Virus record (IMG/VR): IMGVR_UViG_3300025716_000049 | Location: 1-31,051 of that record | Length of the DNA stretch: 31,051 bases | From: a virus | Strand: one strand, 5' to 3' | Part shown: piece by piece, positions 5,753 through 13,280 of the stretch | Numbering within the stretch: the first letter of the stretch is position 1 | Layout of the letters: the number at the start of each line of letters is the position of its first letter | Notes under the pieces: generated by a model | The model's input: only the letters and a program-made list of their open reading frames with translations | The model's database searches: none | Told to the model about the DNA's origin: nothing | Program-made: the position numbers and the translations under genes

Positions 5753-5772
5753 AAGGAGTTTATGCAACTCAT
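5753..5772 (-). terminator. Short hairpin terminator of the NUMOD3-like gene
   Basis: On the minus strand GAGTT-GCATA-AACTC is followed by CTTTTTC and further T residues. The stem is only 5 bp (plus strand GAGTT 5756-5760, AACTC 5766-5770) but the T-run is good, and the position at the stop codon at 5769 fits the one-terminator-per-gene pattern of this block. Confidence 0.45.
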
Positions 5773-6212
5773 AATTTTATATCTTTTGTTACTATATTTC
5801 TTCTCTCATTACGTGCAATTTTTTTTATAGTAGCTATTGATATACCAAACATTTGTGAAATTTCACCGTATGAATAAATTCCCTCTGGTCGTTTAGCATT
5901 TTTATCATTAGATATTAAGAATAGCATTCTTGCCTGTCCAAGTACGTATAACTGTACAATTTCTTTGTCTGATAATTTATTTCCCTTTTTACCAAGTTTG
6001 TATGTTACATTGGCTTGCTGCCTATCAGACATTTTCTTTAACTTACTGTTTGTTTTTTTAGTTTCATCTTTATTCCAAGGAATCGAACCTTTTTTGTTTC
6101 TCCACCCACCAGTACCCTTTTTGCCTTTATTCCACGGAGGTTTACCTTTAAGTTTTTCGCTTATTTTCCTTTTTGATTCTTCGCTTTTAAAATGACTTCC
6201 TTTTGCAGGCAT
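5769..6212 (-). CDS. NUMOD3-type DNA-binding protein with C-terminal helix-turn-helix, no nuclease domain
   Basis: The 147-aa product begins MPAKGSHFKSEESKRKISEKLKG, then GKPPWNKGKKG and a second related element GSIPWNKDETKK. The KGxPPWNKG signature is that of NUMOD3, a DNA-binding module usually attached to HNH or GIY-YIG homing endonucleases. The C-terminal part LSDKEIVQLYVL...YSYGEISQMFGISIATIKKIARNERR is a helix-turn-helix resembling the response modules that accompany homing enzymes and resolvases. No HNH or GIY-YIG catalytic motif is present, so it is either a transcription factor built from these parts or a homing endonuclease remnant. The N-terminal 70 residues are strongly basic. In the absence of a classical CI-like repressor in the window it is a candidate regulator. 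Confidence 0.7.
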   Translation of the reverse strand: MPAKGSHFKSEESKRKISEKLKGKPPWNKGKKGTGGWRNKKGSIPWNKDETKKTNSKLKKMSDRQQANVTYKLGKKGNKLSDKEIVQLYVLGQARMLFLISNDKNAKRPEGIYSYGEISQMFGISIATIKKIARNERRNIVTKDIKL

Positions 6213-8856: not shown

Positions 8857-8875
8857 TTGAATATATACTATATAG
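8857..8875 (+). promoter_or_regulatory. GAATATATA box upstream of the 8967 gene
   Basis: Core GAATATATA at 8859-8867, 99 nt before the start codon, in a 145-bp gap. First and leftmost copy of the recurring box described at 18611-18630. Confidence 0.45.
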
Positions 8876-8958
8876 ATTAGATACATTAACTCAAGTTTAA
8901 CAGGCAATCTGAAAACAATAGAAGATTTGATACATATAATCTATAAACTAAACTAAAA

Positions 8959-8966
8959 CTACGACA
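8959..8966 (+). promoter_or_regulatory. CTACGACA start-adjacent element (copy 1)
   Basis: The octamer directly abuts the ATG at 8967. A second copy lies at 9243-9250, and its exact complement TGTCGTAG is the loop of the terminator at 9286-9322. With the A of the start codon the complementarity is 9 bp. Confidence 0.5.
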
Positions 8967-9227
8967 ATGAAAAAAGCAGAAAAACACGACAATCGAGTAA
9001 TTGCAACAATCAATTATCTCAAATCTAACAAAATGAAAGTTATAGGAGAATGCATCTATATGACAGATGATGCTACTTACATTCCAATTTCATTTAAGGT
9101 TCCTCACCATACAATGTATCGTACATATAAAGTTCCGTTTAACGAATCTATAGATATTGTAGGAATTGTAAGTATAAATATGAAAAACATTAATACGAAT
9201 CAAAAGCATAAAAAGACATTAGAATAA
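8967..9227 (+). CDS. Hypothetical protein (86 aa) with RNA-level control elements
   Basis: Not recognised. Basic ends (MKKAEKHDNR, NQKHKKTLE) flank a beta-rich middle (MKVIGECIYMTDDATYIPISFKVPHHTMYRTYKVPFN) that could be a small barrel or SH3-like domain. No catalytic pattern. It is a single-gene unit with its own upstream box and a strong terminator about 60 bp downstream. The eight bases before the ATG recur after the gene, and their complement forms the terminator loop, so the mRNA 3' end may base-pair with its own translation start. Confidence 0.6.
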   Translation: MKKAEKHDNRVIATINYLKSNKMKVIGECIYMTDDATYIPISFKVPHHTMYRTYKVPFNESIDIVGIVSINMKNINTNQKHKKTLE

Positions 9228-9242
9228 GCAAACACAAACCTA

Positions 9243-9250
9243 CTACGACA
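9243..9250 (+). repeat. CTACGACA element (copy 2)
   Basis: Direct repeat of 8959-8966 in the 3' untranslated region. It is followed by GGTAAACAATATA, a stretch resembling 10407 onward, and then by the terminator hairpin whose loop is its complement. Confidence 0.5.
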
Positions 9251-9285: not shown

Positions 9286-9330
9286 AACCCTGAATTCCTT
9301 TGTCGTAGGAGAATTCGGGGTTTTCTTTTT
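9286..9330 (+). terminator. Strong terminator with a loop complementary to the upstream start site
   Basis: AACCCTGAATTC (9286-9297) pairs with GAATTCGGGGTT (9311-9322), 12 bp with one G-T, followed by TTTTCTTTTT. The 13-nt loop contains TGTCGTAG (9301-9308), complementary to 8959-8966 and 9243-9250. Confidence 0.85.
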
Positions 9331-10343: not shown

Positions 10344-10374
10344 CATTGAGCCAATAAAGTTCAATTTATTTCAA

Positions 10375-10390
10375 TTGATATATAATATAG
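10375..10390 (+). promoter_or_regulatory. GATATATA box before the 10440 hairpin
   Basis: TTGATATATAATATAG, 32 bp after the stop of the 9894 gene. No gene follows before the terminator at 10440-10480, so if active it would make a short RNA of about 90 nt. Confidence 0.35.
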
Positions 10391-10439
10391 AAAGATATAC
10401 CTCAGCAACAGGTAAAAAGATATAATTTGTTTCATTTTT

Positions 10440-10480
10440 AATTCCTGAGTTATGGTTGTTCGTTACTCAGGAATTGCTTT
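10440..10480 (+). terminator. Terminator of the 9411-10343 run
   Basis: AATTCCTGAGT (10440-10450) pairs perfectly with ACTCAGGAATT (10465-10475), followed by GCTTTTTG. The 14-nt loop holds GGTTGTTC (10454-10461), whose complement GAACAACC occurs at 9282-9289. Confidence 0.8.
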
Positions 10481-10510
10481 TTGTAAAAGTGTACAAAGTC
10501 GAATTTTTAA

Positions 10511-10527
10511 ATGAATATATAATTAAA
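10511..10527 (+). promoter_or_regulatory. GAATATATA box of the polymerase-like gene
   Basis: Core GAATATATA at 10513-10521. Transcription starting 6-10 nt downstream would place ACCGTGA (10527-10533) at the RNA 5' end. Confidence 0.45.
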
Positions 10528-10641
10528 CCGTGAATAAGATTATAAAGATATTTTTCAAAATAGAAAAGAGGTTCTATAGGTTTCGTCACGGTTTCCTTGA
10601 ACCTCTTTTGCTATTTAAATAAAATAATACCGTGACCAATG
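10527..10641 (+). promoter_or_regulatory. Structured leader with competing pairings before the polymerase-like gene
   Basis: AAAAGAGGTTC (10564-10574) pairs perfectly with GAACCTCTTTT (10599-10609). The 24-nt loop contains GTCACGGT (10585-10592). Its exact complement ACCGTGAC sits at 10629-10636, two bases before the ATG at 10639, and a 7-nt version ACCGTGA lies upstream at 10527-10533. The loop can therefore pair either with the 5' element or with the start region, but not both: the arrangement expected of a translational or attenuation switch. As DNA, the three elements could equally be protein-binding half sites. Confidence 0.6.
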
Positions 10642-11850
10642 AAACTAATTTCATTTACCCAAAATCAAATCAAATTATTTGATGAACTTTTATCAGATAG
10701 TTATGATAAAACAACTACAAGAGAGCATTATCTATTGTTTCTCTTAAAACTTGAAGAAAATATGGCTTACATTAAAAATGATGAGATGCCATACATCAAT
10801 AACAATAAGGAACGAATAAAATATGGACTTACTACAGTCAGTGGAAAAAGAAAATGGAGATTAGACATAATTCTCAAAACTCTTATTGATAAAAACATTC
10901 TTGTTTCAACATCATACAACAAGGAAAAAAGACTTTGTCGTAATTATTTTTATTCACCATATTTTGAATACTTACTTAGTGAACAAGAAAGCATCATTGT
11001 TCAAGAAGAAATATCAGATGAACTATATGAGAAGATTATTTCAGAACGTGAAGTTCCAACTGATCTTTACTTATTACCTCAATACAATCTTTTAAAAAGT
11101 GATAGGTTCAAAATTGATACAATTAAAGCTACAACTTGGATTAACTCACAAAATTTATCATCAAATAAATTACGTATCTATTTCAGGTATGTATTAGACC
11201 TTAATGATAAACGTATTATTTCTATAAAAGGCGATCATAGTAACAGGGTATTTACGAATTTCAATCTAATGAAGAGAGAATTACGTTCATTTTGTACTAT
11301 TGATAACAAACCTCTTATTTCAATTGACTTAAAGTCATCTCAACCATACTTGTTTGCTTCATATATGCTTTCTAAGTACAATACAGATGAAGCTAATAGA
11401 TTCTATAATATAGTTGTAGAAGATGACATATACAATTGGTTTCTCAATAAATGGAAGGAATCTGGTCAGGAATCCTATATGTGTTATGATAAAAATCAAA
11501 GCATTAAAGTAAAAAAGTTTATTAATGATAGAGAATTACACGCTAAACCAGAATTCTTAAAACTACTTTTCAAACTTGGTGGAACTGAACCACCTTTTAC
11601 AACAATATTTAGAAAAGAATTTCCAACATTATACACTATGTTACTAAATGAAAAGACAACTTTATGTGAGAGATTACAAAGACAGGAAAGCGACATATTC
11701 ATTCCAATAACAAATCAATTCTCAAATCAAGGAGCACTTTCCGTTCACGATAGTATATACTTTGTCGAGGATATTCGAAACGAGATTCTCACACAGTTAG
11801 AAGAGAAATTCACACAGTTAAAGCTCACTCAATATAAATTTAATTATTAA
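10639..11850 (+). CDS. Divergent polymerase-like protein (family A / single-subunit RNA polymerase-like palm)
   Basis: A 403-aa protein with no close family that I can name. The N-terminal 120 residues look like a winged-helix region (TREHYLLFLLKLEENM...RKWRLDIILKTLIDKNILVS). The C-terminal half has RVFTNFNLMKRELRSF leading to LISIDLKSSQPYLFASYM with Asp230, where family-A polymerases have motif A, a basic helical block around Arg298 and Lys303 (motif B candidate), and ALSVHDSIYF with His370-Asp371, like the VHDS/VHDE motif C. Spacing of 141 residues between the two aspartates is shorter than in Pol I. No 3'-5' exonuclease domain. It could be a DNA or RNA polymerase, a primase-like protein or an inactive relative. 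It has its own structured leader and upstream box, and is the largest gene of the middle region. Confidence 0.5.
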   Translation: MKLISFTQNQIKLFDELLSDSYDKTTTREHYLLFLLKLEENMAYIKNDEMPYINNNKERIKYGLTTVSGKRKWRLDIILKTLIDKNILVSTSYNKEKRLCRNYFYSPYFEYLLSEQESIIVQEEISDELYEKIISEREVPTDLYLLPQYNLLKSDRFKIDTIKATTWINSQNLSSNKLRIYFRYVLDLNDKRIISIKGDHSNRVFTNFNLMKRELRSFCTIDNKPLISIDLKSSQPYLFASYMLSKYNTDEANRFYNIVVEDDIYNWFLNKWKESGQESYMCYDKNQSIKVKKFINDRELHAKPEFLKLLFKLGGTEPPFTTIFRKEFPTLYTMLLNEKTTLCERLQRQESDIFIPITNQFSNQGALSVHDSIYFVEDIRNEILTQLEEKFTQLKLTQYKFNY

Positions 11851-12026: not shown

Positions 12027-12287
12027 ATGAAAACAAAAATCAAAATTATCTTAATCTCATTCTTATTATTAGGAATGTTTAACTGTACTAACCCAGTAGA
12101 CGAAACCCCTTATTGTTGGACGTGCACCTGTAATTTACAAGTAAATGGTGAAAATAGCGTTGACACAAGAGAACTATGCGATAAAACAAAAAAACAAATT
12201 AAAGAAATTGAAGATGATTGGACAGGTAAAACAACAAATTCTTGGGGTTATATTGAAAGCAGTGCTAAATGTAATATCAAACAATGA
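12027..12287 (+). CDS. Small cysteine-rich lipoprotein
   Basis: MKTKIKIILISFLLLGMFNC is a lipoprotein-type signal: basic n-region, hydrophobic core and Cys20, although MFN before the cysteine is not the textbook lipobox. The mature part of 67 residues has CWTCTC (Cys30, 33, 35) and two more cysteines (ELCDK, AKCNI). It should be lipid-anchored in the envelope. In a prophage such a gene often serves surface alteration or superinfection exclusion, but that is inference. Its stop overlaps the next start by 4 bp. The leader AAATTTAAAAACTATG resembles host-type A-rich starts. Confidence 0.7.
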   Translation: MKTKIKIILISFLLLGMFNCTNPVDETPYCWTCTCNLQVNGENSVDTRELCDKTKKQIKEIEDDWTGKTTNSWGYIESSAKCNIKQ

Positions 12288-12745
12288 ACCCACTTATAAA
12301 TTATCACTACACTCTACCCTTCAAAGAAGTCAACTCATTCTTATTCTTACCTTACGGTGTAGACGAGACTTGCTATAAAGACAGGATTCTACCACAAATA
12401 CCAAGAATAGTTGATACCTTAAATAAGTTCAGGGAGTCAAGGCAGGCAGCAATATCAGTCAATAACAATATAAACAACTCCTGTATGATGGGACTAGGAT
12501 TTCAAATAGTAAAGAATAAATTGATTGTTTGTGTTACAATGCGAAGTCAATGTAAGACGAATGGTAGACCAAGTGACACAGTTATGATTCAATACATATC
12601 AACATTAGTAATGAAAGCATTAGGATTGAAACAATATAAGGTGTATGTAACTGTATGGAACTATCATAATAATGTAGAACTTACAAAAGAGAATGATAGT
12701 AATGAAGAAGTACAAAGGAATATTAAGTTGTTAGTGAGTTCTTAG
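12284..12745 (+). CDS. Short thymidylate-synthase-like protein, possible dCMP-type specificity
   Basis: A 153-aa protein aligns by eye with the catalytic half of thymidylate synthase. Ser52-Arg53 (SRQAAI) fit the SRR element; Cys67 (NNSCMMGLGFQIV) fits the catalytic cysteine; MRSQCKTNGRPSD (86-98) aligns without gaps with the E. coli TS stretch QRSCDVFLGLPFN; and WNYHNNVEL (125 onward) fits the HLYSNH element. In that alignment the dUMP-recognising Asn (E. coli N177) is Asp98, the residue found in T4 dCMP hydroxymethylase, and the folate-side Asp169 is not conserved. The protein lacks about 100 residues of a full TS. It may act on dCMP, or be a structural relative without activity. It follows the lipoprotein gene with a 4-bp overlap. 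Confidence 0.6.
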   Translation: MNPLINYHYTLPFKEVNSFLFLPYGVDETCYKDRILPQIPRIVDTLNKFRESRQAAISVNNNINNSCMMGLGFQIVKNKLIVCVTMRSQCKTNGRPSDTVMIQYISTLVMKALGLKQYKVYVTVWNYHNNVELTKENDSNEEVQRNIKLLVSS

Positions 12746-13046
12746 ATATGAACTCTTTAAGATTAAAGGGACTCCAAACGGGTCTCTTTTTTTGTGCAGT
12801 AATGCGACTGTGACACTCTTTACATAACGACATTAAGTTGTCGTAATTGAGTGCGTTCTCAATTGTAGGCACGTCTGATATGTCGATGATGTGATGACAT
12901 TCTGTTGCAGGTTTTAGTATATCCTTCTTCAAACAATATTCACATAAAGGTTGCGACCCTATCTTTATATGTCTTAAAGTTCTCCATTCTTTAGAACGAT
13001 AGAAGAGTTGACGATCATCGTATTGGTTGAGGTTAAGTAGTCGCAT
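12723..13046 (-). CDS. HNH endonuclease
   Basis: This 107-aa protein has the full HNH zinc layout: Cys35-x2-Cys38, the catalytic His pair in ECHHIIDISD (His51-His52), Asn70 in YDNLMSLC, and Cys75-x2-Cys78-His79. The front part FYRSKEWRTLR is typical of phage HNH proteins located next to terminases, which take part in DNA packaging cleavage with the large terminase. Unusually it is on the opposite strand to the terminase genes, divergent from them. It has its own GAATATATA box (13065-13073, minus strand) and its last codons overlap the TS-like gene by 23 bp. A homing-type role is the alternative. Confidence 0.88.
   Translation of the reverse strand: MRLLNLNQYDDRQLFYRSKEWRTLRHIKIGSQPLCEYCLKKDILKPATECHHIIDISDVPTIENALNYDNLMSLCKECHSRITAQKKRPVWSPFNLKEFISKNSLTT
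12766..12792 (+). terminator. Terminator of the TS-like operon, inside the antisense HNH gene
   Basis: AAAGGGACTC (12766-12775) pairs with GGGTCTCTTT (about 12780-12789, two G-T pairs) and is followed by TTTT. It is encoded in the C-terminal codons of the opposite-strand HNH gene. Confidence 0.6.
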
Positions 13047-13260: not shown

Positions 13261-13280
13261 TGGATATATACTCTAAATAA
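13261..13280 (+). promoter_or_regulatory. GATATATA box of the terminase operon
   Basis: TGGATATATACTCTAAATAA; core ends 20 nt before the small terminase ATG. It lies at the end of the 244-bp divergent gap, which otherwise shows no gene and could hold the packaging start site. Confidence 0.5.

Follow-up and report, generated by a model that had tools for sequence, protein, structure and literature searches.

The DNA analyzed here, referred to below as the window, is the 31,051-nt viral record IMGVR_UViG_3300025716_000049. Its left end (1-663) carries the start of a host yifB/comM-like gene with ChlI and Mg_chelatase domains, which is cut after AAAGGHNIIIV and adjoins a gene for a large serine recombinase (725-2356). 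The terminase, portal, protease, and capsid genes lie further downstream. The left end of the window appears to be the left boundary of a prophage, with a probable attachment site inside yifB/comM. The phage is probably temperate, since the large serine recombinase adjoins the truncated host gene, and the A-rich leaders without Shine-Dalgarno sequences, together with the yifB fragment, point to a Bacteroidota host. Alignments with the terminase and the TS-like protein found no relatives in the bacterial genome collection.

The leader under study precedes a gene encoding a 403-aa protein (Table 1). The preliminary description of this locus had called the gene polymerase-like, a label that the DNA_pol_A profile (PF00476) does not support, giving no match at E ≤ 10. 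The protein had no relatives in phage or plasmid records, Pfam, PHROGs, NCBIfam, or PDB chains, nor among viral contigs beyond one 100% identical contig, and its AlphaFold model, computed on the single sequence, was unusable (pLDDT 31). The gene order 5' of the TS-like gene (12284-12745) is common to the window and to loci L012, L033, and L121 of related phages. The controlled genes of L033 and L121 matched DnaD-like phage initiators, while those of the window and of L012 (module L012b), at the same place, had no family match. By its place, the 403-aa gene may be a replication gene. The TS-like gene itself encodes a conserved protein of 150 aa, similar to just a part of thymidylate synthase (window, 12284-12745; L005, 5725-6183; L033, 2190-2642; L121, 5484-5939 on the minus strand).

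Table 1. Features of the leader and of the gene behind it; positions are those of the window.
Feature	Position	Strand	Remarks
Operon terminator upstream of the module	10439-10476	+	12 bp, loop TATGGTTGTTCGTT, T-rich tail; hairpin scan
Promoter-like GAATATATAAT	10513-10523	+	Putative; motif recurrent 5' of many genes in the phage group
5' element AAACCGTGA	10525-10533	+	Loop partner 1, candidate antiterminator strand; 9-nt perfect complement of loop 10586-10594
Linker motif AAGATATT	10545-10552	+	Conserved; AAGAYATT 3' of exactly 7 module promoters; alignment
Terminator-type hairpin	10564-10609	+	Arms 10564-10574 / 10599-10609 (11 bp), loop 10575-10598, tail TCTTTTGCTATTT
Loop segment GTCACGGTTT	10585-10594	+	Can pair with the 5' element or, alternatively, with the pre-start element
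A-rich pre-start sequence with conserved TRAAATAA	10615-10627	+	Kept in 7/7 modules
Pre-start element ACCGTGAC, loop partner 2	10629-10636	+	2 nt 5' of the ATG (10639); 8 bp with the loop, -13.8 kcal/mol, unmatched by the 27 other gene leaders of the window
Controlled gene, 403 aa	10639-11850	+	No family match; position taken by a DnaD-like replication protein in relatives

The hairpin has a loop of 24 nt (10575-10598), and in the predicted fold its stem grows from 11 perfect base pairs to 17 bp past one bulge. The probability of the hairpin in the full-length leader is 0.99. Within the loop, TCACGGTTT (10586-10594) faces the 5' element AAACCGTGA (10525-10533) over 9 nt, and GTCACGGT (10585-10592) faces the pre-start ACCGTGAC (10629-10636). 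The hairpin, the loop, and the pre-start complement of the preliminary description proved exact to the base. The ACCGTGA match that it had placed at 10527-10533 is also present, but the full match is two bases longer, covering 9 nt from 10525. ACCGTGA occurs three times in the 31-kb window, twice in direct and once in inverted orientation, and all three copies lie within the leader. Moreover, the leader region folded better than 200 of 200 shuffles (z = -3.3).

The module has a promoter-like site of its own. GAATATATA-type sites lie just 5' of many genes in the phage group, and in the window the 5' element is placed in the correct register behind such a site. An RNA 5' end had already been proposed at this element; the upstream site agrees with it, while the end itself, at about 10525-10530, is a prediction from the promoter-like GAATATATAAT. 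The upstream terminator insulates the module from the preceding operon, and comparable terminators lie directly 5' of the modules in L012, L121, and L018.

Beyond this leader, the GAATATATA-type motif was seen at window positions 13262, 15378, 16686, 18613, 20361, 21520, and 28498, and in the relatives too, 15-50 nt 5' of many genes. It is often followed by TAAAATAA and often lies right after a terminator, and the two motifs together look like a phage-wide promoter plus leader signal. The terminator directly 5' of the module is preceded by a conserved TTGTTTCATT (window, 10379-10485; L012, 5744-5775; L018, 974-1056; L121, 6895-6820 on the minus strand). In the window, L018, and L121, a promoter-like site lies a short way 5' of this TTGTTTCATT-terminator unit, and the terminator loop GGTTGTTCG is kept in the window and L012 despite different stem letters. 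The unit is perhaps a separate small RNA.

When the loop was dinucleotide-shuffled, 0.2% of the shuffles gave exact matches of this length on both sides; for random segments of the window the fraction was about 3e-5. By duplex energy, each loop arm alone had a P of 0.02-0.04. Taken alone, without its relatives, the window locus is suggestive rather than decisive, its loop complementarity being moderately unlikely by chance.

Seven modules with one shared plan were found in five related phages, all of them metagenomic. The plan consists of a promoter-like ATATATA, the 5' element, AAGAYATT, the terminator-type hairpin, an A-rich sequence, and the ATG, and the hairpin loop is complementary to the 5' element over 8-14 nt across the seven modules. 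In the alignment the flanks are conserved, whereas the 5' element, stem, and loop are variable. Because these three parts have unrelated sequences across the modules, the pairing itself appears to be what is kept, and we regard the reappearance of the plan in unrelated letters as the decisive evidence that the pairing is real. Conserved complementarity missing from related phages that carry the gene had been named beforehand as a finding that would speak against a switch; at the orthologous place, 4/4 phages carry a module, and each keeps the pairing between 5' element and loop with unrelated sequences.

Four of the seven module genes lie at the replication position and three encode HNH/NUMOD3 homing endonucleases. 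The closest phage with divergent sequence is contig 3300002068_000022 (loci L005/L012), whose terminase is 92% identical. Its module L012b precedes a 204-aa gene that differs from the window's gene but occupies the same place, and it follows the plan in other letters: the 5' end carries CTACTACTC, a terminator hairpin of 15 bp presents GAGTAGTAG in its loop, and CTACTAC immediately precedes the ATG. Homing endonucleases of the HNH/NUMOD3 type follow two further modules of this phage, L012a and L012c, whose 5' elements are each perfectly complementary to the loop over 14 nt, and the module of L018 also precedes a homing endonuclease. L033 (contig 3300031673_010009) was reached via an endonuclease relative; its module, with TCCGCTAC and GTAGCGGA as partners, lies before the DnaD-like gene, and its pre-start CGCTATTA pairs with the loop through one G-U. 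L121 (contig 3300033148_007835) carries GCTACCAAACCA with a 12-nt perfect match, before the DnaD-like gene and in the same gene order.

A descriptor requiring a TATA-type box, an element of at least 8 nt, and a hairpin of at least 9 bp with the complement of the element in its loop returned exactly the seven modules from both strands of 925 kb, and no match in four passes of dinucleotide-shuffled sequence. L121 had been found by a pattern asking only for the promoter, AAGATATT, and the A-rich tail. This pattern gave 29 stretches in the viral contigs, among which, outside the known phages, only L121 had a hairpin with complementarity. Among the 68 RATATATA sites of the five phages, AAGAYATT follows exactly the 7 module sites and none of the 61 others; L121 was chosen partly by this motif, the other six modules were not. 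Since most homing-endonuclease loci in other phages carry no module, the module belongs to this phage group rather than to the endonuclease family. As a separate observation, the NUMOD3-type and HNH endonuclease genes of the window itself (5769-6212 and 12723-13046, both on the minus strand) showed no module in two-strand scans.

The three-part architecture of the preliminary description holds in part. It is strong in the window, L012b, and L033, where the hairpin segment has a complement on both sides and the pre-start pairing beats that of all 27 other gene leaders. By the same comparison the pre-start element is absent in L121, L012a, and L012c, which have the upstream complement only (L121 offers no convincing pre-start partner of the loop), and in the endonuclease module of L018 the downstream pairing is weak by energy. 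The core has two parts, the RNA 5' end versus the loop of the terminator-type hairpin. These comparisons also bear on a reading at the DNA level, in which the two direct copies and one inverted copy of ACCGTGA, flanking the leader of a possible replication gene, would be operator or origin repeats bound by a replication protein. Such a role is very improbable, given that the inverted copy always lies in the hairpin loop, that the endonuclease modules lack an exact third copy and yet keep a loop pairing of 8-14 nt, and that the positions of promoter and start codon fit an RNA.

The folding predictions were consistent among the modules. In the nascent RNA up to the loop end, the mean pair probability between 5' element and loop was 0.93-1.00 in 7/7 modules, while in the full-length leader the probability of the terminator was 0.95-0.99, again in 7/7. 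The spacer L3, which must cross the helix of 5' element and loop, measures 0-4 nt in six of the seven modules, so that by geometry both helices can hardly be complete at once. For all seven leaders, folding thus predicts terminator and antiterminator structures that exclude each other, as in an attenuator. This supports the earlier proposal of an attenuation-type RNA switch with mutually exclusive pairings, as the plan recurs and the nascent and full-length folds compete in prediction. The leader probably serves as a genuine RNA switch that turns phage replication genes and homing-endonuclease genes on or off.

The position of the element at the presumed extreme 5' end in 7/7 modules would also suit a processing or stability device, in which the short RNA or the mRNA would be shielded from 5'-end-dependent decay by base pairing between its 5' end and the terminator loop, with no switching. 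We consider this improbable: the hairpin precedes the gene rather than following it, full pairing and full hairpin would hardly coexist with such short spacers, and the pre-start copies stay unexplained. Alternative folds in a 5' leader are likewise expected of a metabolite riboswitch, which the preliminary description had kept as an option. This reading is hardly credible, as the alignment shows no conserved ligand-binding core and nothing aptamer-like; only AAGAYATT and the flanks are conserved, and the other letters differ from module to module. Searching Rfam across the window gave nothing at gathering score, and on 10350-10680 nothing convincing up to E 10.

We put a probability of roughly 55% on a self-contained RNA attenuator that would hold the replication-position gene of the prophage off or low, with terminated copies acting in trans. 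When the polymerase finishes the loop, the 5' element would pair with it and enclose the 5' arm of the terminator, which would allow read-through into the gene. If the 5' element were occupied by another partner, or too slow, the terminator would form and yield an RNA of about 90 nt. The competing partner would be supplied by terminated copies made earlier, whose loop would act in trans on newly made RNA. On the pre-start copy, the same loop would also block translation of escaping transcripts; in the three replication modules concerned it could cover the start-codon region, and structure at the translation start lowers initiation in Flavobacterium (PMC6847099). Specificity would thereby be private to each phage and each module.

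The loop of a terminated copy is the best candidate occupant of the 5' element because it is guaranteed to carry the complement, because no opposing phage-type promoter lies over 6/7 hairpins, and because the code differs from module to module, as one would expect of self-recognition. On the opposite strand from the hairpin to +300 after the ATG, no RATATATA, the only promoter type sought, was found in 6/7 modules, and L018 has one distant site; an ordinary antisense gene is therefore not seen. Since the U-tracts are weak in several modules (TCTTTTGC in the window), termination may be partial. In the full-length RNA the loop could stay on its own 5' element, above all where the spacers are longest (window and L033), which would limit trans action. 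The lack of the pre-start part in L121 and two endonuclease modules, and its weakness in L018, count against the proposed attenuator. A 9-nt match of the window loop inside the gene at 12027-12287 was considered as a target and rejected, since this coding sequence is also found in L012, whose loop differs.

The same folds might compete in cis only, with transcription speed, a bound protein (e.g., at AAGAYATT), or phage physiology deciding the outcome and no trans role for the terminated RNA. All the predicted fold competition would fit, and the kept and specific AAGAYATT suggests a bound factor. However, the private letters of every module and the extra pre-start copies would be left unexplained, and we regard a purely cis-acting device as rather unlikely. 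A further alternative is known from IncI-type plasmids, where repZ leaders use translational activation by a pseudoknot. Here, the loop complements the sequence just 5' of the start of the replication-position gene in three phages, so pairing could conceivably help initiation. Such activation is quite improbable: the predicted fold has no strong start-codon structure that would need opening, the pairing is absent in L121, the opposite strand has no phage-type promoter, and the pairing ends 0-2 nt short of the ATG, in a region in which structure reduces initiation in Flavobacterium (PMC6847099).

Returning to the trans-acting attenuator, the nearest known system is the CI RNA of phage P4, which pairs with the upstream seqA and the downstream seqC and brings about termination of replication-gene transcription (PMC4825925). 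In both cases one leader carries A upstream, B in a hairpin, and C downstream, with B complementary to both (PMC4825925). The P4 RNA has replication-gene targets and acts by premature termination; here such targets are suggested by position in four modules, with a DnaD-like gene in L033 and L121, and premature termination is predicted. The preliminary view that the leader matches no known class is right in that no Rfam family matches, but was too strong in view of this A-B-C layout. The P4 CI RNA is made by processing, whereas a terminated transcript is predicted here. Unlike in P4, A is the RNA 5' end, B is located within the terminator-type hairpin's own loop, C is optional and overlaps the start-codon region, and several modules occur per phage, also before homing endonucleases; the phage is probably of Bacteroidota type, and no sequence relation is expected. 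We file the module, by its layout, as something that would work like P4 CI and not as a member of that family. It would work most like the P4 A-B-C immunity RNA, probably acting on itself in trans, and it is by this analogy that a trans action and an immunity role of the leader RNA are suggested. A P4-like mode is favored because the sequences are private, no ligand pocket is conserved, there are almost no opposing promoters, and the phage is apparently temperate.

Other systems share single traits. In the rep leaders of pT181 and pIP501, the nascent leader chooses between preemptor pairing and a terminator, and an antisense RNA comes from the opposite strand. The choice between early pairing and terminator is the same here, but the complementary segment is the terminator loop instead of an opposite-strand RNA. 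In the C4 layout, an antisense RNA with a two-loop fold acts on the genes behind it, with an antirepressor as target. The C4 antisense RNA of phages P1 and P7 (Rfam RF01695) is co-transcribed with its target (PMC8198154). Co-transcription and action on genes behind would be shared with the module, which in contrast lacks the two-loop fold and precedes a replication-position gene; the C4 covariance model gave no gathering-score match over the window and was not among the matches to E 10 on 10350-10680. In IS10, the hairpin loop of RNA-OUT recognizes the unstructured 5' end of the RNA-IN mRNA (PMC4737173). The module would follow the same principle, but RNA-OUT is a separate antisense transcript, whereas loop and 5' end lie here on one RNA, with no phage-type opposing promoter in 6/7 modules. 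A limited literature search found no published description of such a module.

A broader reading is offered tentatively, as a possibility that we do not favor. The modules might constitute an RNA-only system of superinfection immunity and replication control in temperate Bacteroidota-type phages, with the terminated leader as repressor and the terminator loop as specificity code. The code would have diverged so that each prophage is immune only to itself, and the cassette would have been re-coded to silence resident homing endonucleases. Should the proposed mechanism of the module hold, P4-like RNA immunity, which to our knowledge is not known in this phage group, would extend to it. The modules would also be a natural source of orthogonal attenuators for hosts lacking Shine-Dalgarno control, and would supply a simple finding rule, namely a loop that is the complement of the RNA's 5' end. 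The RNA family is absent from the Rfam release searched, and ordinary sequence searches miss it because the pairing plan, not the letters, is conserved.

Other pairings of this kind were noticed elsewhere in the window. The loop CTTTGTCGTAGGA of the terminator at 9286-9322 complements CTACGACAA (8959-8967, spanning the start of gene 8967) over 9 nt, and also CTACGACA at 9243 over 8 nt. This could be a second, differently ordered case, in which the terminator loop of an operon could cover the translation start of its own operon. Furthermore, the leader of gene 8967 (8866-8950) starts with TATAGATTA, which can pair with TAATCTATA about 60-70 nt further on; these arms are 27 nt long and 74% complementary.
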